64,000 nt of DNA from Chitinophagales bacterium (GCA_013299105.1 JAAFJY010000010.1:62001-126000), one strand, 5' to 3'. Numbered from the stretch's first letter, positions 9,723 through 62,382 are shown. The notes: generated from the letters alone by a model not told the origin. Numbers and translations: made by a program.

Positions 9723-9967
9723 GAACTTCGGAGAAGTGGCACGTTTGTAGCTGAGGGCAAGTTAAGTGGGCCTGACTTCGGAGAAGTCTTACGTTAAAAA
9801 TAGTGTTGGTAAAAAGTGTGCATTTATTTGTTTAGACAATGCCTCTTCAAAATACGCCTCAAACCACTACAAACCAACTTGATGTAAGAACGTGAAACTT
9901 CTACGAAGTTCCCAAGATTGGGGTGCCTCCAAGTGCTACAAACGTATAACTTCTCCGAAGTTTTCAG
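9723..9967. repeat. Four-hairpin intergenic element, family 2, copy 1
   Basis: GAACTTCGGAGAAGTGGCACGTTTGTAGC ... GACTTCGGAGAAGTCTTACGTTA ... AACGTGAAACTTCTACGAAGTT ... GCTACAAACGTATAACTTCTCCGAAGTTTTC. Confidence 0.88.
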
Positions 9968-9971
9968 GGAC

Positions 9972-10156
9972 TAAGTGATAAGCCACGAATAAACCTTACC
10001 AAATCGCAACTTCGTTGCCCCGCTGTGCGGTGCTGGTTCGGAACACGGATGAAACTGATGAAACTGATTTTCACTGATTTCCAGCATGATGTTGACCATG
10101 ATGTTGACAACTGGCAATTAAAAAATTGGTAAGGTTTATTTTTGAACCGTTACTAA
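9972..10156 (+). repeat. MITE-like element family A, full copy with TIRs
   Basis: TAAGTGATAAGCCACGAATAAACCTTACCAA ... TTGGTAAGGTTTATTTTTGAACCGTTACTAA; near-identical to 43178-43403 but with an internal deletion. Confidence 0.88.
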
Positions 10157-10262
10157 CCATTTCAAAAAGACTTGGTTGAGCAATGCGATCTTGTCTTTTC
10201 AACCCTTCAACATTTCAACTTCTTTGACCAGCATTACATTTAGAGGACTACCAATACTTCAT

Positions 10263-10855
10263 ATGGAAACACGACAACTTCAAATAAAACCAAGTGACAT
10301 TTACGTGTTTGGGACATTGATGACTGTACCATTGGCCCTGGCCAAGGGTATGGTTTATTTTCAACAGTATTCCATCTTTGAAACCCTGGCATCCGCTCCT
10401 TACCGGCATTTTTTTCAGACTTATGAGCCAACGATAATCGTAGACTGGATTTTTTTAGCGCTTATCTTCGGAATTGTTTTGCACGAATTCATCCATTATC
10501 TATTGTTATTGGGCGAAAAAAGGCGCGTTTTTTTGGATTTTCCAAGAAATTCATGGTGCCCTTTGTCTCTTTTGAAGGTGAGGTATCCGTCAAGCGGTTT
10601 GTGGCTGCGGCGATAGGACCCTACTTTATCATGGGCTTGTTGCCATTCTTAGGGAGCCTATTCACAGGTAATTTGGCTTTATTTTGTTTCTCTGTCCCGT
10701 TTACCTTTGCTGCAAGCGGAGATTTCATCATCATCTCTAAATTGCTAAAATCTTGGAAAGGAACATTGACCTGTACCGTTGATGCCGTGTTTAGAATTAG
10801 GGGTGGTTACAAAAAATTAAGATACCCGAAAAAAGTGCTGCTCAAAACGATGTAA
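10263..10855 (+). pseudogene. Frameshifted DUF3267-like integral-membrane HExxH metalloprotease
   Basis: ORFs 10176..10616 (HEFIHYLLLLGEKRR) and 10553..10855 (MVPFVSFEGEVSVKRFVAAAIGPYFIMGLLPF) read as one protein if the frame shifts at the T tract near 10530-10537. Confidence 0.6.
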
Positions 10856-11612
10856 GCCTATGCTTCTGTGGGATTTTGCCCGGAGGCCAAACGGGCCTTG
10901 AGCAAATCCCGATTTTGCGAAAGGGCGCTTTAAAGCGCGACGGATCAGAAGCCACCACTGTCTGAGCGACGAAGGAGCGAGTTTGGTGGCTTCCCGTTGC
11001 TCCTTGGAGCTGACGTTTCAAGCAAAATCGCAGGATTTGATTACAGCCCTTGATTTTTTTGTTTCTTTTTTGTCAAGAAAAAAAGAAAAAGAATATTTAA
11101 TTGAAAATCAAGGCTTTAGATTTAAATCCAGCCTTGTCAAGCGCCAAAAAGCATGAAAATTCAAAACAATATCCATCCAAGAAGTAGCCTATTTTCTGTT
11201 CTATTTGGGTAGGTTTTTATATACAAATCGCCTTACTATATGACATCGTTCAAACCAATACAAGTTTTGTGAAAAAGCTAAAGCGCTTTTTTTTGAAACA
11301 CAAAAGGAATCAAAAGAGTGCAAAAATCCCAAAAGTGTTCCGCCTTCGGCGAGACTACGCTACCCCAAGACATTGTGAAGTGCTCTTTGTTGACCTGGCT
11401 TTATTTGGTTTTGCACAAAACCTAAAGTAGACGAGTAACTGTAAAACGGTAGTTGATCTGGAAAACAAGCGGTGACTTGCCCTTCAATAGAAATCCCTTA
11501 TAGTTGGGATGATCTTTTCAACGCTTCAACTTTTCAACTTTTCAACTAATTTCGCTAACTATTTTCCCTTCAATCCCTTATCTTCGCGCTCTTGTTTTAA
11601 CAACACAACCAA

Positions 11613-12917
11613 ATGAGCAATATTGTGGCCATAGTTGGCCGGCCAAACGTAGGGAAATCGACTTTTTTCAACCGCCTAATCGGGGGTCGACAGTCGATTG
11701 TGGATGACATATCGGGGGTAACGCGCGATCGGCAATACGGTGCAAGCTACTGGAATGGCAAAAACTTCACGGTGATCGACACCGGGGGCTTTGTACAGAA
11801 CTCGGATGATGTGTTCGAATCAGCCGTTCGTGAGCAAGTGAAAATTGCCATTGACGAGGCTGGGGTCATCGTTTTTATGGTAGACGTGACTACTGGCATT
11901 ACTGATTTGGATGGACAGGTAGCAGATTTGTTGCGCCGGAGCAAAAAGCCCGTTTACCTCGTCGTAAATAAGGTAGACAATGGCCAGCGCATGTTCGAGG
12001 CCAATGAGTTTTGGGGCTTGGGTTTTGAAAATACCTTTTTTCTCAGCTCATTAACGGGCAGCGGTAGCGGTGAAATCCTGGACGCCATCAGCGAGCATTT
12101 GAGCGAAGACGATCAGACTGGTGACAAAGCCCTGCCCAAGTTTGCCATCGTAGGCCAGCCCAATGTGGGCAAATCTTCCCTGACCAATGCCTTGCTGGGT
12201 GAAGAACGCAACATCGTAACTGACATCGCAGGCACTACTCGCGACTCGATCCACTCGCATTACGACAAGTTTGGCAAGGAATTCGTCTTGATCGACACTG
12301 CTGGTATCCGTAAAAAGGCCAAGGTGCACGAAAACCTGGAGTTTTATTCTGTCATGCGGGCCATTCGCGCTTTGGAGGATTGTGACATTTGTATCCTGAT
12401 GATTGATGCCCAAACGGGCCTTGAAGCCCAAGACCAGAGCATTTTCCGCCTGGCCCAGCGCCGCAACAAAGGCATCGTGATCGTGGTCAACAAATGGGAC
12501 TTGGTGGAAAAAGAAACCAATACCGCCCGCGACTACGAGAAGGTGATCAAGGAACGCATTGCGCCATTTACGGATGTGCCAGTGGTATTCACTTCGGTGA
12601 TGGACAAAACGCGGATTTTCAAAGCCATCGAGACGGCCCTGCAAGTACACGAAAACCGCCAGCGCAAAATCAAGACCTCGGATCTGAACGATAAGATTTT
12701 GCCCATCATGGAAAACCAGCCACCACCGGCTCACCGCGGCAAATTCATCAAGATCAAGTATGCTACGCAGTTGCCATTGGCCTACCCAGCCTTTGCTTTC
12801 TTCTGCAATCACCCCACCCATGTGAAGGAAAATTACCGCAATTTCATCGAGAACCAATTGCGCAAGTTGTACAATTTCTCTGGGGTACCGATTTCCGTTT
12901 TCTTCCGCCAAAAGTAA
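11613..12917 (+). CDS. der: Ribosome biogenesis GTPase Der (EngA), two GTPase domains
   Basis: IVGRPNVGKSTFFNRLIGGRQSIVDDISGVTRDRQYG and second IVGQPNVGKSSLTNALLGEERNIVTDIAGTTRDS; C-terminal KH-like domain. Confidence 0.98.
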   Translation: MSNIVAIVGRPNVGKSTFFNRLIGGRQSIVDDISGVTRDRQYGASYWNGKNFTVIDTGGFVQNSDDVFESAVREQVKIAIDEAGVIVFMVDVTTGITDLDGQVADLLRRSKKPVYLVVNKVDNGQRMFEANEFWGLGFENTFFLSSLTGSGSGEILDAISEHLSEDDQTGDKALPKFAIVGQPNVGKSSLTNALLGEERNIVTDIAGTTRDSIHSHYDKFGKEFVLIDTAGIRKKAKVHENLEFYSVMRAIRALEDCDICILMIDAQTGLEAQDQSIFRLAQRRNKGIVIVVNKWDLVEKETNTARDYEKVIKERIAPFTDVPVVFTSVMDKTRIFKAIETALQVHENRQRKIKTSDLNDKILPIMENQPPPAHRGKFIKIKYATQLPLAYPAFAFFCNHPTHVKENYRNFIENQLRKLYNFSGVPISVFFRQK

Positions 12918-13147
12918 GGGGGGACTGAATTGGCCAGTGCGTTGTTCCAGTATTCGGAGTTGAAATGTTGAAGGGTTGAAATGTTGAAAAGAGGTAGCGA
13001 GCTCAAATACGATGCTTGCAAAATGGGAATCGGCTGGAACTTACAAATCCCTAAACCTAAACCGTGCAAACTGGTACACCAGCAACCCAAAACACTTGCC
13101 AGCGAGCCCAACTAACCATTAACCATTAACAACTAACAACTAAAAAC

Positions 13148-13690
13148 ATGCCTTTTTCGCCCACCCCCATCGCTGATCTTTGGGTTTTCGAGCCTAGTGT
13201 TTGGAAAGATGACCGAGGCTACTTTTTTGAAGCTTTCAATGCCAACACCTTTCGGGATGCGGGCATTGATACCCAGTTTGTGCAAGACAACCAGGCGCGC
13301 TCCACTTTTGGGGTGTTGCGTGGCCTGCATTACCAAACTGGGGATGCCGCCCAAGCCAAGCTCGTGCGGGTAGTGGAAGGCGAGGTCTTGGATGTGGCAG
13401 TGGATTTGCGCGAAGATTCAGCCACTTATGGCCAGTGGTACAGCATCCGGCTGAGTGCTGAAAACAAAAAACAGCTCTTTGTGCCCCGTGGTTTCGCGCA
13501 TGGCTACGTAGTGCTCAGTCCTACGGCGGAATTTTTTTACAAGTGTGACAATTTTTACTCCAAAGCCCATGAAGGTGGGCTGCGTTACGACGATCCGCAA
13601 CTGCAAATCGACTGGGAGATTGGCTTAGACCAGGCTATTTTGTCCGAAAAAGATTTGGTTTTGCCGCATTTCGGGGAGCATAGGCGCTAA
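13148..13690 (+). CDS. rfbC: dTDP-4-dehydrorhamnose 3,5-epimerase
   Basis: DDRGYFFEAFNANTFRDAGIDTQFVQDNQARSTFGVLRGLHYQ...VPRGFAHGYVVLS. Confidence 0.95.
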   Translation: MPFSPTPIADLWVFEPSVWKDDRGYFFEAFNANTFRDAGIDTQFVQDNQARSTFGVLRGLHYQTGDAAQAKLVRVVEGEVLDVAVDLREDSATYGQWYSIRLSAENKKQLFVPRGFAHGYVVLSPTAEFFYKCDNFYSKAHEGGLRYDDPQLQIDWEIGLDQAILSEKDLVLPHFGEHRR

Positions 13691-13780
13691 ATGGTTTGTG
13701 GGTTCACAATTAGCATTTGTCAAAAAATGAAAAAACAGTGACAAAATTTAAAAAAAGCTGCACAATTAATCTTTTTGCTT

Positions 13781-13788
13781 TATCTTTG
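13781..13788 (+). promoter_or_regulatory. Possible Bacteroidota -7 element TATCTTTG (TAnnTTTG)
   Basis: Consensus match in an AT-rich intergenic stretch upstream of 14078; clear -33 element not obvious. Confidence 0.35.
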
Positions 13789-14077
13789 TATACAGTACTT
13801 GTTAGGCGATCAAAAAAGGACTGACTTTTTTGATGCCAGATGAAAAAATCGGCTTTGAGGGCGTAAGATTTCGCAAGAAAGGCCGATGTAATCCCAAAAT
13901 AAAGTTTTTTCCCATGAAAACCGATTACAACACACCAAAGGGCCTGTACTATCGCCCTGCCCAACTGGGCTACTATTTACCCGTTGATCCACTATTTGGA
14001 AATCATTTTTGTATTGTCTGAATCTGTGACCTTGAAATACTTCGAGCGTCTAAAATTCGTCCATTCAACCAATGGTT

Positions 14078-15187
14078 TCCATGCGTATCAACCCATACTT
14101 TCGCATTTTTCTTTTTTGCTTGATCAGCTACAACCTGACAGCTCAGCCCCTAGCAGGTATCAATGCAGACTTGGCTAATCAAACCTGCAACAAGCCTTCC
14201 AGCAAAACACATCAATTGGTAAGCTTGCGCAATGCACTTGCCAATGCCGAATATTTCGCTGTCATTTCCACTGGTGAATTAAGTTGGGACAATCTGCCCC
14301 AACCACAAGTTGCGCTTGACCATGCCACCTTGTTGGAATCTCGCTTCAACATGGACTGCAATGCAGGTACGGCCTTCAGTGCCTATTTTGCACCTGAGCG
14401 TTGGGCCCAAACCAGTAAGCCTATGGCTGAAGCAAAATTAGAGCTACTTCTTGAAACTGAAAACAATCAGTTTGTTGCGGTTCAAACCGCCGGAAAATCC
14501 AGCATCAGTTTCGTAGCACCAGCCCTTGGCAATATCAGTTTTGAAGTGAGCCAGCCAGAAGCCTTGCAAGTTTTTCAAGGTAACCGCAAGGTTTATATTC
14601 TAAACAATCAGGTAAGCACCTTTTTGCAGGCTGGCCAAGTGTTGCGTATCGAACTTAGCGCAGATGCAAAGAGCAGCGTGAAAGTTGGTAAGTTCCAATA
14701 CATGTCTGAACTAAGCGGCATCATCACCCGCGAATGGCGAGATGCCCAAAACCAAGTTTCTTTCCAACAAGTGATCGGCCTGGAGCGCCCAAGTCTCAAT
14801 GACATTCGTTTTCCTAAAATGGTGAAAATAGGCCACGACAAGAGCCCAGAAACAACTGGCTTCCCAATCATCGATGCCGATGGCGACTTACAAAGCACCA
14901 ATGACCAATTGATTCTTTTTGGCAGCTTCAACAACGTCAATGTGAGCTACCAGGACCGCATTAGCGAAGACAAAACCCGCATTTTACGCACTTGGACCGT
15001 GCGCGATGATTGCGCTGACAACACCATGAGTGAAGTACAGGAGCTCATTTTGCCCCAGGCTTCAACGGTGAAAACTAAAGCTCCTGCTAAAACACCTGGC
15101 AAATCTAGCCCAGTTCGCAAAGCAGTAAGCCCTGCTGAAACAGGAACAGCATTTCATGTCACAAGCACCTTTGTTCAGGGCTTGTAA
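14078..15187 (+). CDS. Secreted hypothetical protein
   Basis: MRINPYFRIFLFCLISYNLTAQ signal peptide; C-terminal TWTVRDDCADNTMSEVQELIL resembles gliding/T9SS-associated secreted proteins. Confidence 0.65.
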   Translation, partial: SMRINPYFRIFLFCLISYNLTAQPLAGINADLANQTCNKPSSKTHQLVSLRNALANAEYFAVISTGELSWDNLPQPQVALDHATLLESRFNMDCNAGTAFSAYFAPERWAQTSKPMAEAKLELLLETENNQFVAVQTAGKSSISFVAPALGNISFEVSQPEALQVFQGNRKVYILNNQVSTFLQAGQVLRIELSADAKSSVKVGKFQYMSELSGIITREWRDAQNQVSFQQVIGLERPSLNDIRFPKMVKIGHDKSPETTGFPIIDADGDLQSTNDQLILFGSFNNVNVSYQDRISEDKTRILRTWTVRDDCADNTMSEVQELILPQASTVKTKAPAKTPGKSSPVRKAVSPAETGTAFHVTSTFVQGL

Positions 15188-15261
15188 AATGGCATCAAGA
15201 AAAGCCAGTGCCCTGCACTGCAAAGAATATTTTTTGTGAAGGGTTTCTTAACGAGGATTGC

Positions 15262-15292
15262 GCGGGACGTTTCTAAATCGTCCCGCTTTTTT
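15262..15292 (+). terminator. Rho-independent terminator
   Basis: GCGGGACG-TTTCTAAAT-CGTCCCGC followed by TTTTTT. Confidence 0.85.
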
Positions 15293-15365
15293 ATATACAT
15301 TAATGGCCAAAACTTTTTTCAAAATAACACTTCCAATACCCAAGACTAATTTATTTTTGCCGCTT

Positions 15366-15506
15366 TAGTATTTGAGCTAAAATGAAATGGACGTTGCTTT
15401 TGAGGTTTAGCAAAAAAAGAACACAAATCCTTTCATCCAGTTGTTTTAACAGGTAGTTATCTTTTTTCACTAAACCTAAATCTGTCCACCTTATTTTTTT
15501 AGGCTC
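15366..15506. repeat. Dispersed intergenic repeat family C, copy 1 (imperfect terminal inverted repeat)
   Basis: TATTTGAGCTAAAATgaAatGGAC...GGTTTAGCAAAAAAAGAACACAA...CCAGTTGTTTT...TCCACCTTATTTTTTTAGGCTCCC; closely matches 35103-35235. Confidence 0.8.
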
Positions 15507-15681
15507 CCTTAGAAACCGTTTTAAAACCTCTGGGGATGACAGAAAATGCCGAATTTTGAGTGTCAGACGAAGGCAATTTTTAAGGGAATAGCCGGGGCTA
15601 TTGCCTTAAAAATTGGTGCAGTATGACGCCAAAAGGTGGCGTTTTATGGCCCGTAGGGTGTTTTAAAACAGTTTCTTAGGT
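15507..15681. repeat. MITE-like element (family E) with ~24-bp TIRs and a long internal hairpin
   Basis: CCTTAGAAACCGTTTTAAAACCTC versus reverse complement of GTGTTTTAAAACAGTTTCTTAGG; internal CAATTTTTAAGGgAATAGCC/GGCTATTgCCTTAAAAATTG. Confidence 0.75.
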
Positions 15682-15814
15682 CATGTTTAAAATTTTAAAC
15701 TAGTCATATCAAAGTAAGTGGCTGGCCGTTTATATTTTGCTCAAATCCTTCGGACTTGGTTTTGTGCAGAACAAATGATCTAATCACTTATTTCAAACTC
15801 TCAATCCTATGATC

Positions 15815-16342
15815 ATGATCAAACGCATCATGCCAATTTGTTGCTTGCTCCTTTTGGGCCTTTGGGGCTGTGGAAACAAAAGTGACGTAAGAGAAAAAGC
15901 TCAGGAAGCTGTAGAGGCTGAAGAGCAAGCCAAAAAGACCGTGAAAGAAGAGCCTTACATCAAGGCCAGTGCAGCACAGGATTTCAGCGGTGTTTTCGTT
16001 GACCGCAACTATCCGGACAAAGGTTTCTGGAAAAAAATGACCATTACCCATGTTGCTGGCAACACGGTTAAAGTGGACATTGTAGGCAAAGAAGAAAATG
16101 GCATGCCTGGCTGTAAATTTTCTGACATTGGCACCCTGGTCAATGGCCGAATTGAAATTCCGATTGAGAAAAAAGAAGGTTTAGCCGACTCAGAAAAGAC
16201 CTTCATGTTGATCCAGTTTGCTGAAAAGGGAAAAATTGCAGTGCGTTCTCGCGGTAAACATGAGAATTATTGGATGGCGCTCGCGCTGTTTTGTACTGCC
16301 AATTCCACTTTGGCCGACAACTATATGCCGATTTCGGAGTAA
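15815..16342 (+). CDS. Putative lipoprotein
   Basis: MIKRIMPICCLLLLGLWGCGNKSD lipobox; charged N-terminal region. Confidence 0.65.
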   Translation: MIKRIMPICCLLLLGLWGCGNKSDVREKAQEAVEAEEQAKKTVKEEPYIKASAAQDFSGVFVDRNYPDKGFWKKMTITHVAGNTVKVDIVGKEENGMPGCKFSDIGTLVNGRIEIPIEKKEGLADSEKTFMLIQFAEKGKIAVRSRGKHENYWMALALFCTANSTLADNYMPISE

Positions 16343-16358
16343 TTGCCACTTCTTTGGG

Positions 16359-16402
16359 CAAAAAGCCGTTGCAAACAGACGATTTGCAGCGGCTTTTTTT
16401 AT
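16359..16402 (+). terminator. Rho-independent terminator
   Basis: AAAAGCCGtTGCAAAcagacgaTTTGCAgCGGCTTTTTTT. Confidence 0.8.
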
Positions 16403-16719
16403 GCCCCCAGCCCAGCCGGTTTTGGACCTAAGGTGTTTTTCAAAATTAACTAAGTAATTGTATTTTAGATTTTTACAAACAGCAATAGGGTCGTTTTTTA
16501 GGAAAACCAGAGGGGACAAAAGTGTAAAAATGTCCTTTCGGGGGCCGAAGGCGGCACTTACATTTGCTACACAACTCGTAGAGAGATCGTTGAAATCTCA
16601 AGTTGAAAAAGGGTGTAGCGACAAGGGGAGCGGGTAAACGAATCTGCTCCCCTTCAAAGGAACGAGTTGTCAACCATCAGAAAAGGTAGTGTAGAAATAG
16701 TTTTAAGGTAATCTATTGC

Positions 16720-16746
16720 AGGCCCGTTTACAGCGGGCCTTTTTTG
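16720..16746 (+). terminator. Rho-independent terminator
   Basis: AGGCCCG-TTTACAG-CGGGCCT followed by T-run. Confidence 0.75.
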
Positions 16747-16813
16747 TTTCTGACTTGGTGTAATATGCCCACCCTTGATTATCTTGCGGAACAATCAACT
16801 GAACACATCATAC

Positions 16814-17365
16814 ATGGCACCCAAATCCGTATCTTCTTCTCGTACCACGATCACCGAATTGATGATTCCTGCATACGCCAATTTTGGTGGAAAAATTCAT
16901 GGAGGCATCATTTTATCGATGATGGACAAAGTTGCTTATGCTTGTGCTGCCAAACACGCAGGCAGTTATGTGGTAACGGTGAGCGTTGATGGGGTCAATT
17001 TTCGGGAGCCGATTTCGGTGGGAGAGTTGGTATCCATGCATGCTTCGGTCAATTATGTGGGGCGCACTTCATTGGTAGTGGGGATTCGGGTAGAATCTGA
17101 AAATGTGAGAACTGGTGAGTGCAAGCATACCAATACCAGCTACTTTACCATGGTGGCCAAGGATGACAAGGGGGATCCTACCCCGGTTCCAGAGCTGATT
17201 TTGGAAAATGAAGAAGATGTGCGTCGCTGCCTGGAAACAATCAAGCGCCGTCAAGTGCGCGAAGATTTCAAAGACGAATTCGACAATGTAAAATCGCGGA
17301 TGCGCCTAAGAGAAAACATGCATTTGTTGGAAAAAGAACGGGTCGTCCTGGACATTAAGCAGTAA
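16814..17365 (+). CDS. Acyl-CoA thioesterase (hotdog fold)
   Basis: ELMIPAYANFGGKIHGGIILSMMDKVAYACAAKHAGSYVVTVSVDGVNFREPISVGELV. Confidence 0.88.
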   Translation: MAPKSVSSSRTTITELMIPAYANFGGKIHGGIILSMMDKVAYACAAKHAGSYVVTVSVDGVNFREPISVGELVSMHASVNYVGRTSLVVGIRVESENVRTGECKHTNTSYFTMVAKDDKGDPTPVPELILENEEDVRRCLETIKRRQVREDFKDEFDNVKSRMRLRENMHLLEKERVVLDIKQ

Positions 17366-17398
17366 AGGAGCGTAAAAAATAAGTAACACCAAAACTCA

Positions 17399-18709: not shown

Positions 18710-18735
18710 TTGTTATTTCATGAATCTCCTTTGAT

Positions 18736-19194
18736 ATGCAAAAGACTGTATTTCAAGTTTTGTTGAGTCTTGCCTTTTTGTTATTGCCCTTTTTGGGAAA
18801 AACCCAGAACCAGCCAAGCTCCCCATTTGACGTAAAAGTGGGAAATCCGCTGCGCAAAACCTTGTTGGATGTAATCCGTAAGCCAACAATAGCTGACCTG
18901 GGCCAAAACGTAGAGTTTGTGGTGAGTACTATTCGCACCAAGGGCACCTGGGCTTTTGCACATGGCATGATCCAGCAACCAGGTGGAAAGCCTGTTGACC
19001 GCAAGAAATTTGTAGAAAAAAGTGCCATTCTCATGGCCAATGATGAGGTCTTTGACGACAATTTCCAGGCGGTGTTGCAGCTCAAGCAAGGCAAGTGGGT
19101 GATCACCAAGTACGCCTTGGGCTGCACCGACGTATGTTGGTTGGAATGGATCGAGTTGAAAGGGGTACCGAAAGAAATTTTTCCAAATTTTTAG
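18736..19194 (+). CDS. Secreted hypothetical protein
   Basis: Signal peptide MQKTVFQVLLSLAFLLLPFLGKTQ. Confidence 0.6.
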   Translation: MQKTVFQVLLSLAFLLLPFLGKTQNQPSSPFDVKVGNPLRKTLLDVIRKPTIADLGQNVEFVVSTIRTKGTWAFAHGMIQQPGGKPVDRKKFVEKSAILMANDEVFDDNFQAVLQLKQGKWVITKYALGCTDVCWLEWIELKGVPKEIFPNF

Positions 19195-19386
19195 TCCAGT
19201 ACCTGATCTAAATCAAGGCGTATTTTTCCTGCTGCTGCTGCGCGAGTCGATTTCGAGCACTTTGCCTTGAGGAGTGAAAAAATAAGATATCCATCTTATT
19301 TTAGCTCAAATACTAAGGTATAATTTACCGTTTTTTTAACCAATGCTATCGTTTGTACCTTCTTTTACTGCTGCCGATAAAATATC

Positions 19387-37683: not shown

Positions 37684-37727
37684 ATCTTTTCAACCCTTCA
37701 ACATTTCAACTAAACTACACGCCGCTC

Positions 37728-37882
37728 GTACAAGTCTCCAGACTTGTACGGCTATGTCTGCGTCTCTGACGCATGAAGGAGACTTGGCGACTTCTTTGCA
37801 ATGCATTGATAATCAATTTTTAATAAAAAATGATTGACGTCAGAGACGTGTGAATAATGGTACAAGTCTGGAGACTTGTACC
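37728..37882. repeat. Four-hairpin intergenic element, family 3, copy 1
   Basis: GTACAAGTCTCCAGACTTGTAC, GCGTCTCTGACGC, ACGTCAGAGACGT, GGTACAAGTCTGGAGACTTGTACC in inverted order. Confidence 0.88.
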
Positions 37883-38082
37883 AGCGCACCTCTTCCTTTT
37901 GTGCAGATGAAGCCGATCATAACCGCATATTTTGGTCAAGAATCGGCATTTTCACCACTCAATCATACCGCTTTGTCAAAGTGTAGATTTTGCCACATTC
38001 GCATAATCTGCTCTTTTTTCTTGCACTTAATGGATAAGCGTGAATTGCTGCAACTCTTCAGCCTCTCAACCTCTCAACTAAA

Positions 38083-40407: not shown

Positions 40408-40781
40408 GCTAGTACTTTGGGAACGAAATAATAAGCCATTAATAATTTATGGTTTATAAAGCACCCAGCATGTCCAGCTTCGCAAGAAGCACAAGATTTG
40501 TAGTATTGGTCATTCCGTCCACATTTCCCAACTGCTGGCTTCCCAAGAAGCCTAAGATTTTTGATGCCTTATACTTCTTGCGAAGCCAGAACCCCTCCCT
40601 GGAATCCCCAGTTCTACAAAGTTTTTGGCTTCTTGCGAAGCAGGCTCGCTATGGGATTCCAAGGGCGAAATAGATTTTTCGTTACACGTGTGGACACCTG
40701 GGATGCTTTTAGGCTTCAATCAAAACCAAGCATTCATTCGCCAAGGTATATAGACACTTATTTCGTTCCCAGCCCACTAGC
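40408..40781. repeat. TIR-bounded intergenic element containing the four-hairpin family 6
   Basis: GGCTAGTACTTTGGGAACGAAATAATAAG versus reverse complement AGCTAGTGGGCTGGGAACGAAATAAGTG; internal GCTTCGCAAGAAGC hairpins at 40477, 40537, 40573, 40627. Confidence 0.78.
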
Positions 40782-45009: not shown

Positions 45010-45067
45010 TGTGTATGCCCTGGTATATGCATGTCCTGGTGTTAGTTCTCAATTTACTGAAGATCCG

Positions 45068-45228
45068 TTTACGCGTTACAAACGCGTGTAAGAAGGTTCC
45101 GGTCAGAGACCTGGAACCAGCGTCCGGTCAGAGAGATCTGGAACCAGCGTCAATTTAGCGTTGAGCTGGTGTCGGGTCTCCTGACCGACACCGGGCTTCC
45201 GCACGTTTGCAACGTGCTTACGAGAACT
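45068..45228. repeat. Multi-hairpin intergenic element, family 4, copy 1
   Basis: ACGCGTTACAAACGCGT, GGTTCCGGTCAGAGACCTGGAACC, GGTGTCGGGTCTCCTGACCGACACC, GCACGTTTGCAACGTGC. Confidence 0.85.
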
Positions 45229-45382
45229 TAGTATTTTGCCTAGACAGAGAAAGATACTTACTGAAATGCAGATTGAGAACTTACCTGAATTCATCAAAAC
45301 TGATCCCAATAATGCCTAAAACTTGCACAGGAACCCAGTCTGGCTTATTTTTGGGTCAATTTATTGGCAACCCGCTCCTTTC

Positions 45383-45987: not shown

Positions 45988-45999
45988 TATATTTGTAGC

Positions 46000-49373: not shown

Positions 49374-49824
49374 TTTGTCGTGCGACATAAAGTTTTGACC
49401 CTTGCATGCGACATAAAGTTCTACCCTATCTTCGCTGATCATTGACATAGGAAACTTCGGAGAAGTTACACGTTTGTAGCCAACAGCAAGCTAAGTGGGT
49501 TTGACTTCGGAGAAGTCTCACGTTAAAATAGTGTTGATAAAAAATGCGCACTCAATTGTTTAGACCAAGCCTTTTCAAATTGCACCATAAAAAACTAAAA
49601 CCCAATATGATGCAATAACGTGAAACTTCTACGAAGTTTTCAAGTAATGAGATGCCACCAAGTGCTACAAACGTGAAACTTCTACGAAGTTTTCAGTAGA
49701 TGTATCCTTCGAAGATGGAAGATTCTCCAAGGATCAACTGATGTATCTAAATTGTCAATTAACTGCTTTCACAAGGGGTACAACTTAATGTCGTTTAGAG
49801 GGTCAAAACTTAATGTCCTACCAC
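49374..49824. mobile_element. Relic/non-autonomous element with IS-like ~50-bp TIRs enclosing a family 2 element
   Basis: GTCGTGCGACATAAAGTTTTGACCCTTGCATGCGACATAAAGTTCTACCC versus reverse complement of right end GTGGTAGGACATTAAGTTTTGACCCTCTAAACGACATTAAGTTGTACCCC; AACTTTT on both flanks. Confidence 0.7.
49451..49696. repeat. Four-hairpin intergenic element, family 2, copy 2
   Basis: Same four palindromes and near-equal length as 9723-9967. Confidence 0.88.
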
Positions 49825-49905: not shown

Positions 49906-49921
49906 GGTGTGTTCCAAATCC

Positions 49922-52661: not shown

Positions 52662-52698
52662 AAAAGCCCGGCAGCCTGAATCACCAGACTACCGGGCT
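52662..52698 (-). terminator. Terminator downstream of susD-like gene
   Basis: AAAAAAAGCCCGGcAGCCTGAATCACCAGACTaCCGGGCTT. Confidence 0.78.
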
Positions 52699-52753
52699 TC
52701 TGAAGCTTGTCGAAGGTCTACTTTTCAACATTTCAACCCTTCAACATTTAAAC

Positions 52754-54274: not shown

Positions 54275-54296
54275 GTTTTTTTAGATTGTGCAGTGT

Positions 54297-57200
54297 TTAG
54301 AACTTAGCGTTGAGGTTGAAACCGATGCTGCGGGTAGTAGGCACCCCTGTTGCTTCTAAACCATTGAGGTTGTCCGAAGCATAGCCCGATTGTTCAGGAT
54401 CGATGTTTTCAGTCCATTTTTTCAGGATAAACACATTATTGGCCACAAAACTCAAGCGCAAGCTTTTTACGAACAAGTTACTGGGTAAGTGCTTGGTGAA
54501 ATCGTATCCGGCAGTGATCTGACGCAATTTCCAGAAACCAGCATTGTAGAGAAACTGCTCGCCCAAGTCGCGGCTACGGGCTTGCTCATAGAACTGTTGA
54601 AGCGGTGCCGCGACGGTGTTTGTTTCTCCTTTTTGGTTTACCCCTTGGCCTACAACGGTATTGGTTTCGCGACCAGGCAAGGTAGCTTTGTGCAAACCAT
54701 GGCGGTAAGCATTGAAGTTGGTACCTGAAGACAAAACGTGGCCCAGTTTGAAGTCGATCAAAGCCGAAATGCTGAAACCCTTGTAAGTGAAAGCGTTGTT
54801 AAAACCGCCCACCCACTTGGGAATCGTGGTGCCAAAAGGCTGCAATGGATTGATCACTGGCAAGCCAGCTGCATCAAAAATCTGGCGGCCCTGTGCGTCA
54901 CGGGCGTAAGCATTGAGGTACAGTAAGCCCATGGGTTGACCAACTACCTGGCGAATTTGGCCCATACCAGCCCGCCAAATTGATTCACCTACGGAAATCT
55001 GCTCTGGGCGACCATTCTTGTCATAGTCACGGTCACCTACCCCATTGTCGTCAGTAAGGATTTTTTCAACCAAAGTGGTGTTGTAAGAACCGTTGAAGCT
55101 AAAGTCCCACTGGAAGTTTTTGGTCTTGATGGGCACCAGGCTGATCAACATTTCGATCCCCTGGTTGCGGCTACGACCACTGTTCAGGCGGGTGTTGGTA
55201 TAACCAGAAGCATCAGAAATCTGAGCAGCAACGATCTGGTCGGTGGTGATCTTGTTGTAGTAAGCCAAGTCGATGTTCACGCGGTTGTTGAACATGCGCA
55301 GGTCCAAGCCGACTTCTGCCTCAGAAACGCGCATGGGGCGCAAGTTGGCATTGGGCACAGTGCTGCCGCTGATGAAGCCCAGCGGTGCGCTTGCCGAACC
55401 ATTGGCAATTGGGAACAAGTTGGCGTTGATGCCGTAAAACAGGTTGTTGGCATAAGCACCTACGTCCAAGTCGCTACCCACTTCAGCGTATGCGGCACGG
55501 ATTTTACCAAAGTTCAACCACTTTGGTGTCTCCTTGAACAGCTCAGTAAAGATCAAACTGGTGGTCACCGATGGATACAGAATGCTGCGGTTGGCTGGTG
55601 ACAAAGTCGAGAACCAGTCATTGCGAGCAGTTACGTTGACGTACAAGAAATCGTTGTACGAAATTTCAGCTGCCCCGTACAAAGAGTTCACTTTGCGCTC
55701 GCCAAAGCCGTAGGTCGGGTCTTTCAAACGGGCATTCATCACAGTGTAAAGGTCGCGAACGGCAAATTCGTCGCCGCGTACACTGTTGTTTTCACCCCGT
55801 ACATACAATTGGTTGCCCCCGAATGTAACGTCCAAGCCAAATTTGCCGAATTTACGGTTGGCTCCCAGTAAAAAGTCGGCATTCACTTCGCGCTGGCGGC
55901 GGGCTTCCTGGATGAAGAAACCGTTGACAAAGCCAGGCTGGGCGGCTGCCAGTGAAGCCGAACCCGTGGGGAAGTTGTACTCCTGTTGGCGTGACCAATA
56001 ATCCTGTCCCACTCGCGCCTGGGCATACAACCAGTCAGTAAGGTTGTAACGCAGCGTGATGTTGCCAAAAATTCGGTCACGGTCGATGTGCTCGAACTTG
56101 CGAAGGAGGTTGAAGTATGGGTTCGTACGGTTGCGAAAACGGGAGTAAACGTATTCATCCCCCGCAGCATTCACTGCATTGGCCTCTAGTATGTCCATTG
56201 GCATGGAGTTGGCTAGCGTGTACATAGTAGTTGGGATGCTGTAATCCTGTTGGGCAAACTGTGGTGGGTTGTTGTTGACTTCCTTCGAGTAGTTGACGTT
56301 GCCACTTACCACCAGTTTTTTGGTCACATTTTGGGTGAAACCTAGGTTGATGGTTTTGCGATTGTAGCTATTGTTGGGTGTGATGCCCTTGTTATCCATG
56401 TTCGACAAAGAGAGGTTAAAGCCCCCTTTGTCGCTGTTGGAGGAAAGGGAAATAGTATTGGTAGCTGTTACACCGTCGCGGTAGAACTGGCCCAATTGTC
56501 CGCGCTGGGGCACGTAAGGCACATTGAGATTGCCGTACAAAGCGTGGGTCATTCCAGGCTGGAAGCGCTCGCCGAATGACCACACACCTGATTCAGGATT
56601 GATGGTGGTTGGTCTTCTGCCGCCTTCGCCCTGGCCATATTCGTACTGCCAATCGGTAAAGTCCAGCATCTGGTCTACGGTGTAGTTGCTGTTGTAATCA
56701 ACCCCAAGACCCTTGGAATTCCCTTTGGTCTTGGTGGTGATCATCACTACCCCGTCCTTTGCGCGTGAGCCGTAAAGTGCTGCTGCGGCTGCACCTTTCA
56801 GTACGGTCATGCTTTCGATGTCATCCGGGTTGATACTGCTCAATCCGTCGCCCCCGTCCGAGTTGTTGTTGCCCCGGTTTTGTACCGAACCATCGCCCGA
56901 TAAGTTGCCTTGCGCCAAAGCAAAGTTGGTGTTGTCAATAGGAACCCCGTTTACTACAATCAGTGGGGCATTGGTTCCATTGAATGAAGACTGCCCCCGA
57001 ATTCGGATTTTGGAAGTACCTGCTGGCCCAGAGCCCAAGGTGCTGATGTTAACACCAGCCATTTTACCTTGCAGGGCGTTCATGAAGTTCACTGTGCGGT
57101 TTACACTGATTTGATCTGCATTGGCAGTGGCGGTGGCGTAACCCAATTTCTTGGCATCTTTGCGGATACCGAGTGCTGTTACAACCAGTTCGTCCAAGGC

Positions 57201-57512
57201 TTCTGCATTTTCTGCCAGGCTGACATTGAGCAGCGTTTGGTTGCCTACTGCTACTTCTTGGGTTTCAAAACCGATGTAACTGAAGACCAATACCGCATCC
57301 GCCCCGGGTACTTGCAGCGAATAAGCGCCATCGGCATCGGTTTGGGTACCATTAGTAGTACCTTTTACTTGAATCGAAACCCCTACCAGGCCTGACTCGT
57401 CCTTAGCTGAACGGACTGTTCCGCTGACGGTTCGTTGCGCAAATGCAGCGAAGCTCAGCAGAAATGTTGCCATCAGGATTCCGACCTTTAGCAACTGTAC
57501 ATGTTGTTTCAT
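54297..57512 (-). CDS. SusC/RagA TonB-linked outer membrane protein
   Basis: RTVSGTVRSAKDESGLVGVSIQVKGTTNGTQTDADGAYSL...ALQGKMAGVNISTLGSGPAGTSKIRIRGQSSFNG...DDIESMTVLKGAAAAALYGSRAKDGVVMITTK. Confidence 0.97.
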   Translation of the reverse strand: MKQHVQLLKVGILMATFLLSFAAFAQRTVSGTVRSAKDESGLVGVSIQVKGTTNGTQTDADGAYSLQVPGADAVLVFSYIGFETQEVAVGNQTLLNVSLAENAEALDELVVTALGIRKDAKKLGYATATANADQISVNRTVNFMNALQGKMAGVNISTLGSGPAGTSKIRIRGQSSFNGTNAPLIVVNGVPIDNTNFALAQGNLSGDGSVQNRGNNNSDGGDGLSSINPDDIESMTVLKGAAAAALYGSRAKDGVVMITTKTKGNSKGLGVDYNSNYTVDQMLDFTDWQYEYGQGEGGRRPTTINPESGVWSFGERFQPGMTHALYGNLNVPYVPQRGQLGQFYRDGVTATNTISLSSNSDKGGFNLSLSNMDNKGITPNNSYNRKTINLGFTQNVTKKLVVSGNVNYSKEVNNNPPQFAQQDYSIPTTMYTLANSMPMDILEANAVNAAGDEYVYSRFRNRTNPYFNLLRKFEHIDRDRIFGNITLRYNLTDWLYAQARVGQDYWSRQQEYNFPTGSASLAAAQPGFVNGFFIQEARRQREVNADFLLGANRKFGKFGLDVTFGGNQLYVRGENNSVRGDEFAVRDLYTVMNARLKDPTYGFGERKVNSLYGAAEISYNDFLYVNVTARNDWFSTLSPANRSILYPSVTTSLIFTELFKETPKWLNFGKIRAAYAEVGSDLDVGAYANNLFYGINANLFPIANGSASAPLGFISGSTVPNANLRPMRVSEAEVGLDLRMFNNRVNIDLAYYNKITTDQIVAAQISDASGYTNTRLNSGRSRNQGIEMLISLVPIKTKNFQWDFSFNGSYNTTLVEKILTDDNGVGDRDYDKNGRPEQISVGESIWRAGMGQIRQVVGQPMGLLYLNAYARDAQGRQIFDAAGLPVINPLQPFGTTIPKWVGGFNNAFTYKGFSISALIDFKLGHVLSSGTNFNAYRHGLHKATLPGRETNTVVGQGVNQKGETNTVAAPLQQFYEQARSRDLGEQFLYNAGFWKLRQITAGYDFTKHLPSNLFVKSLRLSFVANNVFILKKWTENIDPEQSGYASDNLNGLEATGVPTTRSIGFNLNAKF

Positions 57513-57806
57513 AAGCTTGCGTGATTGTGATTTAAAATGTAACAATTTAATCCTTAATATTTTGATTGCGAAACGGATCAGTTTACATCAAAATGCGGGA
57601 TTAAATAGTTAGGTATAGGGATCGATTTGGATTGAACGTATTTTCAAAAGTGGGTTTGGGAAAAGAATCATAGAAATACTAAGTACTGTACAAATGTAAA
57701 AATAAATAGTAGCCGATAAAGCGGAAAGCCATAAATAATTTCATAATCCACCTTTTGTTCAGAATAATCCACCTTTTTTGATGAACTGTGCCAGTGTAAC
57801 GAGTGG

Positions 57807-58288
57807 TATTTTTTTGTCTAAACCACATTTTTTGTCTAAACCAGAATTCGCAGAATTACATAATTACTTGCGTGAGGTTGACCAAACCAGAATTTTGAAG
57901 AATTGGAGAATTGGCCTGCGTTGCGGTCTATAGCTGCGAATTGGCATATTTCATTTGTGGCTTATTAGACTTTATGTACATTAGATTTTTGAGTCAGAAC
58001 ATACGCAGTTTTTAGAAAATTACCCTTTGTTTACATTTTGACCTTTTGATACGGCCCCCAGAAATTATTAAGCTTTTTAATTTCGTTCCCAAGGCTCTGG
58101 TGGTCCTGGAACGAAATAACCGTATCTATTTTTAGTAGCACGCCCAGACCGTGAAAACGGTCCAATTCTATTTCTATAATTCTTGTAAATTCTTGCGTGG
58201 TCAACGTCAAGCGAGGTAATTCTGTAATCCTGCGAATTCTGGTTTATACAAAGAAGTCGTGTTGGTAATGACTGTCTATTTCGTTCGC
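57807..58288. repeat. Intergenic element with ~55-bp inverted repeats (family D)
   Basis: Left arm reverse complement GGTCAACCTCACGCAAGTAATTATGTAATTCTGCGAATTCTGGTTTAGACAAA versus right arm GGTCAACGTCAAGCGAGGTAATTCTGTAATCCTGCGAATTCTGGTTTATACAAA. Confidence 0.75.
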
Positions 58289-58548
58289 GCACCACGAGGG
58301 TTTAAATGTGTATTAGCATCTGATCCAAAAAAGTATGTCGCTAAAGCAACACTTTTTCACTTTGAGTTGAAAAAAAACGCGTCACTGTCCGCACTTCAAC
58401 ATTTTACCTGTTTACTCCAAGCAACACAAAACCAATGACTTATAATTGTGCGTTAGGAAGTGAAAACTGGCAGCAATGCAAAGATTTTGTTTCTACTGCT
58501 CCTGATGCAGCGTTAGGCCTAGGGTTTAAGCGCCCAAAACCTCAAATT

Positions 58549-58916
58549 GAATGTGGACAAAGACAAAATAGCCATTCAAGGCTACGATCCGGTGGCTTTT
58601 TTACCGACCAAAAGCGGTAAAAGGTCAGGAAGCATTTAAGCAGACCTATGAGGGAGCAATTTATCATTTCGCCAGCAAAGAACACTTGAGCCTTTTTATC
58701 AAGAGCCCTGAGAAATACCTGCCTGCATAGGTCGGTTACTGTGCTTTTGGTCTGGCAAAAGGTTACACTACCCCCATCAAACCCAATGCATGGTCGATTG
58801 TAGACGGTAAATTATGCCTGAACTACAATCTGGATGTGCGCAAAACCTGGAATAAAGACCAAGCAAACTACATCAATAAAGCGGACTTGTATTGGTCAAC
58901 TGTAGGCAAAAATTGA
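58549..58916 (+). pseudogene. Degraded YHS domain protein
   Basis: KIAIQGYDPVAFLPT / frameshift / AVKGQEAFKQTYEGAIYHFASKEHLSLFIKSPEKYLPA-stop-VGYCAFGLAKGYTTPIKPNAWSIVDGKLCLNYNLDVRKTWNKDQANYINKADLYWSTVGKN. Confidence 0.85.
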
Positions 58917-59103
58917 CCTTTTAGGGCCGGAATGAGAACCCTCTAAGTAGTTACCCAATACCAAGCGACGATGAGATAACTACGCAGGCTAACAAGAGGA
59001 GAAACTTGAATTAGTCGGGGTTTAAAACAAATCACTACGGTTAGAAAAAATAAAAACAGGCAAGCCGAAAACTGTATCAAAGAGTAGGCAAAAATTTAAC
59101 AAA

Positions 59104-60024
59104 ATGTTCAACAAAATTGCAATTTTTGGATTAAGCATGATGTTTATTGGTTTATTGTCAGTGTCTTGTGACAAAGATAATGACGCAACAAGTGCTAAAG
59201 GAAAAGATATTAACACCGCAACAAAAGTGAGTGTTGATAGATTTAGTGTTACCGCAGGAAAATTGATGGTAAGAACGGCTACTAATGGTTTGCCAGTAGC
59301 CAATGCACCCATCAATTTTGATAACCAGCCTTTTATTACAACAGGATTGGACAGAACAGGAGCAGTAGTAAAATACTATAATTTTGATGTACAATCGACC
59401 GCGCCGGAAGATATTTATGTGTTTTTCAAAGAAGATGGAACACAGCTTTCAGAGCAAAACAACATTATACCTACCATACCTGGAGAAGTAGGATACAATG
59501 ATTTTTGGTTAGTAAACAAAGTAACGGTTCCCAAAAATTACGTTCCAAATAGCCTTACCAGCGAAAATGAGGTTTTATCTTCTGGTTATAAGATAACTAA
59601 AACCAACTCAATCGTAAACTGTCCTGTTGTTCCATTTGGTTCAACTGCTGCAAGAAGCGCTAAAGCAAGTATTGCAAGTGCTTTAACTATTGGATGGTAC
59701 AAAGGGCAAGCAGTAGCCTATTTCAACTTTGCCGAAAAAGAGTTAACCACTACATCCGCAAATCAAGTACCAACCTCTCCAATATATGTTATGTTTAATG
59801 ACAATGCAGTGGGACCCGCATCTGGCTTTAGAACAGAAACAGCAAATCCAAGTCAAACACATAATGTTTTAGCAACGATACCAAGTGATGCATCTTATAG
59901 CCCATTGTGGAATGTACTTGTATTGGATAACAAGAATTTTAATGCAGTTACAAATTTAGCCACTGCAACAAGCATTGCAGCTTCCGCAGCAGGCGCAACA
60001 GTCAATTGTCCTATTGTCAAGTAA
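59104..60024 (+). CDS. Hypothetical lipoprotein
   Basis: MFNKIAIFGLSMMFIGLLSVSCDKDN lipobox; 306-aa ORF. Confidence 0.65.
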   Translation: MFNKIAIFGLSMMFIGLLSVSCDKDNDATSAKGKDINTATKVSVDRFSVTAGKLMVRTATNGLPVANAPINFDNQPFITTGLDRTGAVVKYYNFDVQSTAPEDIYVFFKEDGTQLSEQNNIIPTIPGEVGYNDFWLVNKVTVPKNYVPNSLTSENEVLSSGYKITKTNSIVNCPVVPFGSTAARSAKASIASALTIGWYKGQAVAYFNFAEKELTTTSANQVPTSPIYVMFNDNAVGPASGFRTETANPSQTHNVLATIPSDASYSPLWNVLVLDNKNFNAVTNLATATSIAASAAGATVNCPIVK

Positions 60025-60155
60025 CATCTGAACTGCCTTCAAAGCAGATTGATAATTGAGTTAAAACAAGTTGAATAAATTTGCTTTTGAGGTTTGTTTA
60101 AGAGTAAGTTCTCAATCCGATTCTCACCACTGGTCTGGCGACAATGGCAAGTACC

Positions 60156-60445
60156 CGTAAGCACTTTGCAAACGTGCGTAAGCCCGGAGTCGATCTGGAG
60201 ACCTGACACTAGTGGTCCAAATTGTAAATCTGCCCCAAGTTCCACGGGCTATTTGTCTCCGTAGCTGCGTTGTTCGTCGGTCAAATAGTCCACTATTTTC
60301 CCTCCTCTCGCCTTGCTACGAAGCCAAATAGCCTGCCTGGAACTTAGGGGGTATTTTTAATTCGTACCACCAGCAGAACGCTGATCGGAGGCTGGTCCAC
60401 GGTCTCCGACTGGAACCATCTTCTACGCGTTTATAATGCGGGTAC
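60156..60445. repeat. Multi-hairpin intergenic element, family 4, copy 2 (interrupted)
   Basis: CGTAAGCACTTTGCAAACGTGCGTAAGCCCGGAGTCGATCTGGAGACCTGACAC and CTCCGACTGGAACCATCTTCTACGCGTTTATAATGCG match family 4 copy 1 ends in reverse complement. Confidence 0.78.
60212..60370. repeat. TIR element nested in family 4 copy 2
   Basis: GTGGTCCAAATTGTAAATCTGCCCCAAGTTCCACGGGCTATTTG versus reverse complement of right end GTGGTACGAATTAAAAATACCCCCTAAGTTCCAGGCAGGCTATTTGG. Confidence 0.7.
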
Positions 60446-60483
60446 TGGTATTTATCGGATGGAGAGCTTACTCCCCAACATAT

Positions 60484-61998
60484 TTACTCCCCTAAAATAG
60501 CGTTCCTCAACGCAGTTCTAAACCTGACTACCCGCATCATCCTATCAATTTTTTCTCGCCAGCGATCGTAGAGCACAAAATCGGCGTTCCAACCGTGCTG
60601 CAAGTTGGTATACACCCCTACATCGCACAGGTAACTCAGTTTGTGCAAAATTCCAGTATAGTGGTCGGCCCCGTAAGACCAATTACTTTTGCCGCTCAAA
60701 TATTCCCGAAAGCCTCGGATGATCAGCATACAAAGCTCTTGGTTCCAGCTTTGCGTGCTTTCGCGCAGCAGAAAAGTCACAAACTGGCCATCTTCCAAGG
60801 GACCTGAGCGTTTTTCCAAGTAATTCTTGAGCAAACGGTTGAAACTTGCTTGTGGTAAGGCCTGGATCAGGTTTTTGCCCAATTTCCCCGCCCAACCGCT
60901 GGCATTTTCGTTTTGCAACCAGTGGGCTACAATGGCTTCCAACTGGGTTTCATCCTGGTGTTGCAAAGCGGCCTCGCACAAGGCGCTGAACCAACCATCG
61001 CCAGGGGCTTGGGTAAAAAAGACCTTGCACAAGGTCAATGCCTCCAGCTCAAATTTTTCGCGTAAAAATGCAGGTGACACCCTGCGAATCAGTTGCTCCA
61101 CCCAAGTACTGCGTTGTTGTTGAGTAAACGGACCCTTGCCGCCTGATTCGATGCCATATTGTTTCCATTTTTCAGGCAATTCTAGGGGCAATTTTACCTG
61201 CAAACGGCCTTTTTCAAGGGAAAGACAAGTCAATAAAAACGACTGATAATTCGTGCTCAATTGACTTTGAGGCAAAACGCTCAATAGTTCAGCGGCGGCC
61301 TGTCGGGTTTCTCGGCGTTTTTCCTGCAAACAGCTTTCCAGGAATGGCTCATCCGTTTTGCTCAAACCAATCTCCAGGCACAACAGCAAAGGAGCCCGCC
61401 ATTCCAGGGCTTCGCTTTCCCAGGATTGGGCCAAAAGGCTCAAAGCGTGTTCAGGATTTGCTTTTCGGAGGTGCTGGAGCAGTAAAAAGCGTTGCGTTCC
61501 GGTGGCCAAGTCCCAATCCAACTCTTCCAGGTGGCTGGTATCCAATTTTTTCCAAGCTGGATTTTGAGCGATCAGCCAGTGACCCAAGTTACCGATGCGG
61601 GGCAGGAGCTGTTCTCGAAATTTCTCTTGCTCAACACAACGCTGGATCAAGGCCGGGAGGCTTTGTGGGGGGAATTGTTGATCACTTTCTTCCAATAAGT
61701 CCAGGGCTTCGGGCAAAGCGTCCGCATAATCGCCTTCCAGTACTTGTAGCAGCAAACGGGCCGCTCGGGGGCTGCAATTCTTTTGGCTTTGGGGTGGATT
61801 CACTTTGGCCTGAGCCTCCCAAATTGGTAGCACAAATCCCGCTCGTTTGCTTTGTCGCTCCAGTACCAAGACCTGCGCCAATTGTACGTCAGGCGCTTGG
61901 TCGGCAGGGATGCCCCATTGCGCAAGCAGCGCTGGGGGCAAGGCAGCACGGTCGGTTCCTAAAATGGCCAAAGAACTGAGGGCTGAGGAGCCTGGCAT
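60484..61998 (-). CDS. DUF5691-like protein
   Basis: 504-aa helical repeat-like ORF; LGTDRAALPPALLAQWGIPADQAPDVQLAQVLVLE. Confidence 0.6.
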   Translation of the reverse strand: MPGSSALSSLAILGTDRAALPPALLAQWGIPADQAPDVQLAQVLVLERQSKRAGFVLPIWEAQAKVNPPQSQKNCSPRAARLLLQVLEGDYADALPEALDLLEESDQQFPPQSLPALIQRCVEQEKFREQLLPRIGNLGHWLIAQNPAWKKLDTSHLEELDWDLATGTQRFLLLQHLRKANPEHALSLLAQSWESEALEWRAPLLLCLEIGLSKTDEPFLESCLQEKRRETRQAAAELLSVLPQSQLSTNYQSFLLTCLSLEKGRLQVKLPLELPEKWKQYGIESGGKGPFTQQQRSTWVEQLIRRVSPAFLREKFELEALTLCKVFFTQAPGDGWFSALCEAALQHQDETQLEAIVAHWLQNENASGWAGKLGKNLIQALPQASFNRLLKNYLEKRSGPLEDGQFVTFLLRESTQSWNQELCMLIIRGFREYLSGKSNWSYGADHYTGILHKLSYLCDVGVYTNLQHGWNADFVLYDRWREKIDRMMRVVRFRTALRNAILGE

Positions 61999-62044
61999 GG
62001 TTGTGAATTTTGGGCAAGGTAAGCAGAGGGATGGATTTTTTAAT

Positions 62045-62115
62045 GGTTAGTTGTTAGTTGTTAATGGTTAGTTGTTAATGGTTAGTTGTTAATGGTTAGT
62101 TGTTAATGGTTAGTT
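62045..62115. repeat. 14-bp tandem repeat TTAATGGTTAGTTG
   Basis: About four to five consecutive copies just upstream of the minus-strand CDS 60484-61998. Confidence 0.9.
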
Positions 62116-62225
62116 GGGTCGCGATGGAAGATCAGCAATTTTCGCTTTGGGTGTAATCCATTGATTTTGTGTTTATTAAACCTGATGTTTTTGATTTTCG
62201 TCTCAAAATAGAAAGAGCGCCGCTC

Positions 62226-62382
62226 GTACAAGTTTCCGAACTTGTACGGCTATGTTTGCGTCTCTGACGCATGAAGGAGACTTGGCGACTTCTATGCAAT
62301 GTTTTGATAGTCAATTTTTTATTAAATTTTTTTTTAAACGTCAGAGACGTGTAAATAATGGTGCAAGTCTGGATGCTTTTAC
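62226..62382. repeat. Four-hairpin intergenic element, family 3, copy 2
   Basis: Closely matches 37728-37882, including GTACAAGTTTCCGAACTTGTAC and GCGTCTCTGACGC. Confidence 0.87.

Follow-up and report, generated by a model that had tools for sequence, protein, structure and literature searches.

Inverted double-hairpin modules that frame Y1 transposase genes probably hitch-hike in miniature inverted-repeat elements of a Chitinophagales genome

Non-coding elements built of four hairpins recur between the genes of a Chitinophagales bacterium (GCA_013299105.1) and bear on the question of how hairpins of the repetitive extragenic palindromic (REP) type disperse. We analysed a 64,000-nucleotide stretch of this genome (JAAFJY010000010.1:62001-126000; hereafter the window), which lies inside a 7.67-Mb draft of 77 contigs, probing the contigs by similarity searches and targeted stretches for four families, F2–F4 and F6, numbered after families 2–4 and 6 of the window, and for F2b, a variant of F2. 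We find that pairs of these hairpins probably hitch-hike in miniature inverted-repeat transposable elements (MITEs) moved by duplication-making enzymes. We document their anatomy, their association with genes for transposases of the Y1 HUH type, their target-site duplications, exchangeable cargo and nested insertions, and conclude that most copies were placed by something other than the single-strand mobiliser envisaged in an initial annotation of the window.

In the explanation that we favour, the four-hairpin core would be a module similar to a REP doublet forming a hairpin (REPIN), consisting of two inverted copies of a two-hairpin REP-type unit. Such units would frame Y1 HUH genes of subclass 1.2 (F2, F2b and, by motif only, F6) or of subclass 2.6 of the REP-associated tyrosine transposases (RAYTs; F3 and F4), and in single-stranded form the hairpins would be substrates of the Y1 proteins. 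Most intact F3, F4, F2b and F6 modules would be cargo inside miniature inverted-repeat elements, or vehicles, which they would have entered before amplification. The movers would be target-duplicating enzymes supplied in trans, probably DDE transposases, leaving 9 bp for F3 and 8 bp for F4 and F2b; in F2, duplications of 7 bp abut the hairpin ends themselves.

Hairpin cores, outer repeats and target-site duplications

The four-hairpin layout first described in the window is present in all four families: each end carries two hairpins, one outer and one inner, and the two ends are mutually inverted. The families had been called unrelated, and their sequences do differ, but F2 and F6 share one plan, in which a hairpin is followed after 9 nt by GTAG. 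Folded as single-stranded DNA and compared with 200 dinucleotide shuffles each, the cores gave z-scores of −6.0 (F2), −9.2 (F3), −5.7 (F4) and −7.9 (F6), no shuffle folding as well (0/200 each). Genome-wide, F2 has at least about a dozen copies, short or interrupted, besides the gene-bearing ones, F3 has at least about 20 that are near-full, F4 at least about 40 in all, and F6 at least 14 that are near-full as well as more than 20 that are partial; these counts are lower bounds, the best 40 candidates of each similarity search having been scored. The F4 inner hairpin pattern occurs at 61 genomic places, its reversed pattern at none. All four families are thus repeated through the genome, which removes the possibility raised initially that only the copies in the window exist. 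The draft is in 77 contigs, but an assembly artefact or chance palindromes as the source of these elements has a negligible probability given tens of copies per family in differing flanks, folding z-scores of −5.7 to −9.2 and exact duplication lengths. Four further genomes of the genus, all from other species, yielded no F6 copy, so that among the genomes tested F6 was amplified or survived in this lineage only.

Two features had escaped the initial annotation, namely outer inverted repeats (F3, F4 and F6) and direct duplications of 7–9 bp (F2, F3 and F4). In aligned copies, conservation runs past the four hairpins to further inverted repeats: CAGCAATTCCCGCTTTGG in F3, for a vehicle of about 405 bp; GTAAGTTCTCAATCC, the GTAAG type, in F4, for vehicles mostly of 213–246 bp; and CTAGTGCATTGGGAACGAAATAA in F6, for a vehicle of about 370 bp. 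Just outside the F3 and F4 outer repeats, or the TAAG/CAG ends of F2, lie direct duplications of one length per family: 7 bp in F2 short copies (match 0.70 versus 0.29), 9 bp in F3 (0.73 versus 0.25) and 8 bp in F4 (0.77 versus 0.29; exact in 10 of 22 copies). When right flanks were shuffled among copies, none of 20,000 trials per family reached the observed match in F2, F3 or F4.

DDE transposases leave target duplications of fixed length; Y1 HUH transposases are known to leave the target unduplicated. The initial annotation had proposed single-strand transposition, or a function at the RNA level, by a common type of mobiliser. For the copies seen, the duplications of 7, 9 and 8 bp (F2, F3 and F4) and the outer repeats beyond the hairpins speak against single-strand transposition, and there is no single common mobiliser, since Y1 genes of two classes and outer repeats of at least three kinds are involved. 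It is unlikely that a Y1 TnpA (RAYT) alone moved the short elements in trans, as doubled REPINs in the form of single-stranded DNA, even though cognate Y1 genes carry the same framing hairpins, the cores fold strongly as single strands and units of F3, F4 and F6 are found outside vehicles as well: the fixed-length duplications, the outer repeats and a single vehicle holding two unrelated cores (below) all stand against it. Such movement is largely contradicted for the short copies and may apply to the bare units.

Exchange of cargo, nesting and the search for movers

With at most one mismatch, the genome has 104 instances of the 14-base GTAAG end, compared with 0–1 for a reversed control. Among 29 close pairs of such ends, 21 enclose the F4 hairpin, in elements of 217–243 bp, 7 the unrelated F2b core, in longer elements of 275–349 bp, and one no hairpin core. 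The eight copies other than F4 also carry 8-bp duplications (mean 6.25 of 8 positions versus 2.5). One vehicle with two unrelated cores argues that the cores were imported. The coreless element measures 84 bp (L313:81-164; C11:121928-122011) and has its junctions where one F4 outer hairpin would begin to pair, at its base; it is thus an empty vehicle or one that has lost its core precisely. F4 units lie without a vehicle at 14–16 places, and F3 and F6 units are likewise found outside their vehicles.

Nested copies allow an occupied site to be compared naturally with its empty counterpart. An F3 vehicle sits in an F2 element (L031; C15:107.8-108.5 kb) with the duplication AAAAAGAAC, and an F4 vehicle sits in an F3 element (L149; C34:295.7-296.4 kb) with the duplication AAATTYGT by direct reading. 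The best match to a probe of joined F3 flanks, L156, was rejected as a clean F3 empty site as it is a core deletion keeping one arm, and joined F6 flanks used as a probe returned no empty copy. Several layers of nesting are seen at two further loci: at L343:316-988 (C17) a 460-bp element, its ends being CCTATTCTTGTCCCATA, splits the core of an F3 vehicle, and at L341:185-1400 (C1) a GTAAG vehicle with an F2b core is broken by an element of the IS5 family. We considered the latter as a helper for GTAAG vehicles and discarded it as an unrelated insertion into a GTAAG copy.

Several observations weigh against carriage of the hairpin pairs by separately moved vehicles. The 84-bp coreless element may have arisen by deletion and not be ancestral. 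Apart from its own hairpins, F2 lacks outer repeats, which makes vehicle and module inseparable for this family, and its gene-bearing copy L051 has the flanks AAGCATC/AACCATC, a match of 6/7 by eye. No duplication borders the ends assumed for F6, and among all copies of the window just one, the F2 element at 9720, retains a duplication (6/7). The hairpin order in the F4 core, with hairpin 1 outermost, reverses that around the F4 Y1 gene, with hairpin 2 outermost, so that the captured module would have been a neighbouring or permuted pair. Near single GTAAG ends we found no autonomous helper insertion sequence (IS) with such ends, and IS66, hinted at by the 5′-GTAA ends and 8-bp duplications, was dropped as a candidate because no IS66 gene was found, although a draft of 77 contigs may hide such a helper.

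Y1 transposase genes framed by the same hairpins

A profile search with PF01797 found nine Y1 genes in the genome, and six of them bear the hairpins of the short elements: three those of F2, two those of F3 and one those of F4, as the initial annotation had suggested might be the case. The three genes with F2-type ends (C3, C17 and C56) are IS200-like and encode 155–156 amino acids. On one side of each gene the outer hairpin is followed after 9 nt by GTAG and then by the inner hairpin, and on the other side the order is inverted. The C3 gene has ends of the F2b variant, and F2b cores elsewhere are 100% identical to both of these ends over 29–33 bp. F3 hairpins frame the C10 and C31 genes and F4 hairpins the C45 gene, whereas for F6 none of the nine genes is cognate. 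Because the same hairpins frame Y1 genes, the F2, F3 and F4 cores are REP/REPIN-type modules. As these pairs belong to different Y1 genes, the shared architecture is best explained by shared function and not by shared sequence.

The suggestion that RAYTs are involved holds for F3 and F4, whose proteins pass the NCBIfam REP_Tyr_transpos model NF047646 (87.6 and 84.5 bits; cut-off 80), and not for F2, whose protein falls below that cut-off (25.9 bits) and instead passes the IS200/IS605 model NF033573 (70.5 bits; cut-off 55), scoring 88.9 bits with PF01797. The F2 protein and that of L054 (C6), a further IS200-like gene with two inverted hairpins at each end, have the Y---Q--HH motif diagnostic of subclass 1.2, and the F3 and F4 proteins are nearest to subclass 2.6 with NHLH and Y[IV]H[NH]NP motifs (motifs per PMC6006769). 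F6 is grouped with subclass 1.2 by its hairpin–9 nt–GTAG pattern alone. A GTAG or GTGG at the 5′ foot of the hairpin is absent in F2 and F6, where GTAG lies 9 nt 3′ of the outer hairpin, and none was seen at the foot of F3 or F4 hairpins, as expected for subclass 2.6.

Other Y1 loci differ in their frames. L053 has inverted repeats in its flanks, and at L052 (C3:30.6 kb; 1200-2150) copies of a GCCCTGAAAGGGC hairpin unit flank the gene in direct, not inverted, orientation. Direct repeats are also strong at L221, which belongs to a different genus of the family and contains a CCCTGAAAGGGCG hairpin in its flank. Both F3 Y1 genes (L057:1200-2200 and L055:950-2060) adjoin a repeat starting GCTGCACCCAGCAA, which at L057 brackets the element as a long direct repeat.

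Hairpin framing extends beyond this genome. In a survey of 62 Y1 genes, drawn from this genome, from relatives and from named genomes, upstream and downstream flanks matched as inverted repeats above the 99th percentile of mispaired flanks at 39, and direct repeats exceeded that percentile at 31. In the relatives L222, L232, L236 and L247 the Y1 gene lies between very long direct repeats, with scores of 113–279 against a control 99th percentile of 17. Among several unrelated subclass 1.2 loci, a hairpin followed after 9 or 10 nt by GTAG occurs at the genome's own F2, F2b and L054 genes, at the congeners L219 and L228, in Runella limosa (L240) and, with ATAG instead, in a member of the Cytophagaceae (L249). 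An alignment of eight such stems is 100% paired with compensatory changes at four of five pairs, and has a covariation of 0.986 versus 0.349 when shuffled and at most 0.28 when slid, absolute values that flatter the motif since the sequences were picked by eye for having hairpins. The subclass 1.2 relatives found are mostly Bacteroidota, plus Nostoc, and many genes of subclass 1.2 lie between hairpin units in inverted orientation, several of them GTAG-tagged.

These results also bear on whether the hairpin pairs are structural parts of MITEs, such as bidirectional terminators or RNA-stabilising hairpins, that Y1 genes captured or between which they inserted. MITEs fold and affect neighbouring transcripts (background in PMC3733652), and vehicles and cores were amplified jointly here. 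We nevertheless consider this origin very unlikely, as two-hairpin inverted framing recurs with unrelated sequences at those 39 of 62 genes, the stems covary and one vehicle holds two unrelated cores.

Across 35 Y1 gene loci with inverted flanks, duplications were not above control (6 versus 5.2 expected, k=7), and the same loose test detected them in 15 of 22 F4 copies against 3.3 expected. The hairpin termini of F2, the 7-bp duplications of its short copies and the flanks of L051 would fit a Y1 (HUH) element that itself makes 7-bp target-site duplications. We regard this as highly improbable; if true, it would be a new insertion mode for the Y1 (HUH) superfamily.

Copies in the window and relation to known systems

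Table 1 Positions of hairpin elements and associated repeats in the window
Feature	Position	Strand	Remarks
Left 7-bp target-site duplication, F2 element at 9720	9713..9719		GGACTAC
F2 short element	9720..9967	+	ends TAAG...CAG; outer hairpins 9725-9737 and 9949-9961; inner hairpins 9775-9787 and 9897-9909
Right 7-bp target-site duplication, F2 element at 9720	9968..9974		GGACTAA, 6/7 match
F3 four-hairpin core	37720..37888	+	outer GTACAAGTCTCCAGACTTGTAC, inner GCGTCTCTGACGC
Right outer repeat of F3 vehicle at 37720	38033..38050	-	degenerate, 4 mismatches
F6 vehicle	40409..40780	+	outer repeats 40409-40431 and 40758-40780
F6 four-hairpin core	40477..40641	+	outer GCTTCGCAAGAAGC, 9 nt, GTAG
F4 vehicle	45041..45284	+	GTAAG-type outer repeats 45041-45055 and 45270-45284
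F2 short element	49449..49696	+	flanks shared with copies on C12 and C22
F4 vehicle	60104..60471	unassigned	GTAAG-type outer repeats 60104-60118 and 60457-60471
F3 vehicle	62133..62539	+	outer repeats 62133-62150 and 62522-62539; core of four hairpins at about 62218-62388

Not every copy in the window is regular (Table 1). The F3 copy at 37720 has no convincing left outer repeat (the best has 6 mismatches). The F4 core at 45041-45284 has one additional inner hairpin, and that at 60104-60471 is split by an unrelated insertion with its own inverted ends, GTGGTCCAAATTGTAAAT / ATTTTTAATTCGTACCACC (window 60190-60390), whose end sequence also adjoins an F6 copy (L128) and thus marks another repeat family. 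The flanks that the F2 element at 49449 has in common with the C12 and C22 copies make it part of a larger duplicated unit; it sits between GCGACATAAAGTT and inverted copies thereof (window 49382-49819), the larger unit has three genomic copies, and F2 may here be a passenger of yet another vehicle. Elsewhere in the window, an array of clustered regularly interspaced short palindromic repeats (CRISPR) occupies positions 1-3700, with at least 49 repeats starting CATTGCGGCATTTCCAGTAAAAGAAGGATTGAAAC at a spacing of 72–75 bp, and a repeat with TTGGTAAGGTTTATT occurs at 4730, 10115, 30755 and 43362, beside further repeats at 9969 and 43174.

The route taken by many of the copies can be read from target-site duplications, swapped cargo in a shared vehicle and nested empty sites, and it does not resemble single-strand transposition. 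If hitch-hiking recurs elsewhere, part of the dispersal of REPs and of bacterial interspersed mosaic elements (BIMEs) requires no RAYT activity. The framed subclass 1.2 genes challenge the published view of that subclass and provide testable substrates.

Among known systems, REPINs, BIMEs and the REPtrons of RAYTs (PMC3116915, PMC2817692, PMC6006769) likewise consist of inverted pairs of REP-type hairpins, with a Y1 gene that the same hairpins frame. The present units differ from REPINs and BIMEs in having two hairpins each, in the position of GTAG in F2 and F6, 9 nt after the outer hairpin and not at its 5′ foot, and in copies that carry target-site duplications and mostly lie inside outer inverted repeats. 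Subclass 2.6, described from Bacteroidetes with atypical structures and with copies of its flanking structures elsewhere in the genome, is close to F3 and F4 in both motifs and the recurrence of flanking structures; carriage inside MITEs is not described in the parts of that account available to us (PMC6006769). The same account describes subclass 1.2 as generally without terminal structures, whereas many members here lie in inverted hairpin frames, several GTAG-tagged. The subterminal hairpins of IS200/IS605 elements are not mutually inverted and the elements make no duplication; F2 ends are inverted double hairpins, and its short copies duplicate 7 bp while the gene-bearing loci as a set do not. 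TIRtrons, with their TIRYT genes, resemble the present system in the long, sometimes double-palindromic inverted repeats that flank Y1 genes and also form dispersed families (PMC3733652), but those repeats belong to the Y1 gene, whereas the outer repeats of the short copies here are separate and come with duplications.

The vehicles themselves are closest to bacterial MITEs such as MITEAba12 (PMC6382973), which are short and non-coding with terminal inverted repeats and fixed-length duplications. Terminal inverted repeats, lack of coding capacity and repetition are found in F3, F4/F2b and F6, and duplications of fixed length in F3 (9 bp), F4 and F2b (8 bp) and F2 (7 bp), not in F6. Cargo in a MITE has been described for a Porphyromonas minisatellite (PMC4596501), and we found no description of REP pairs carried in MITEs in the open-licence literature. 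The present elements stand apart from bacterial MITEs in what they carry, a pair of REP-type hairpins that is also found framing a Y1 gene, and in the occurrence of one vehicle with two unrelated hairpin pairs.
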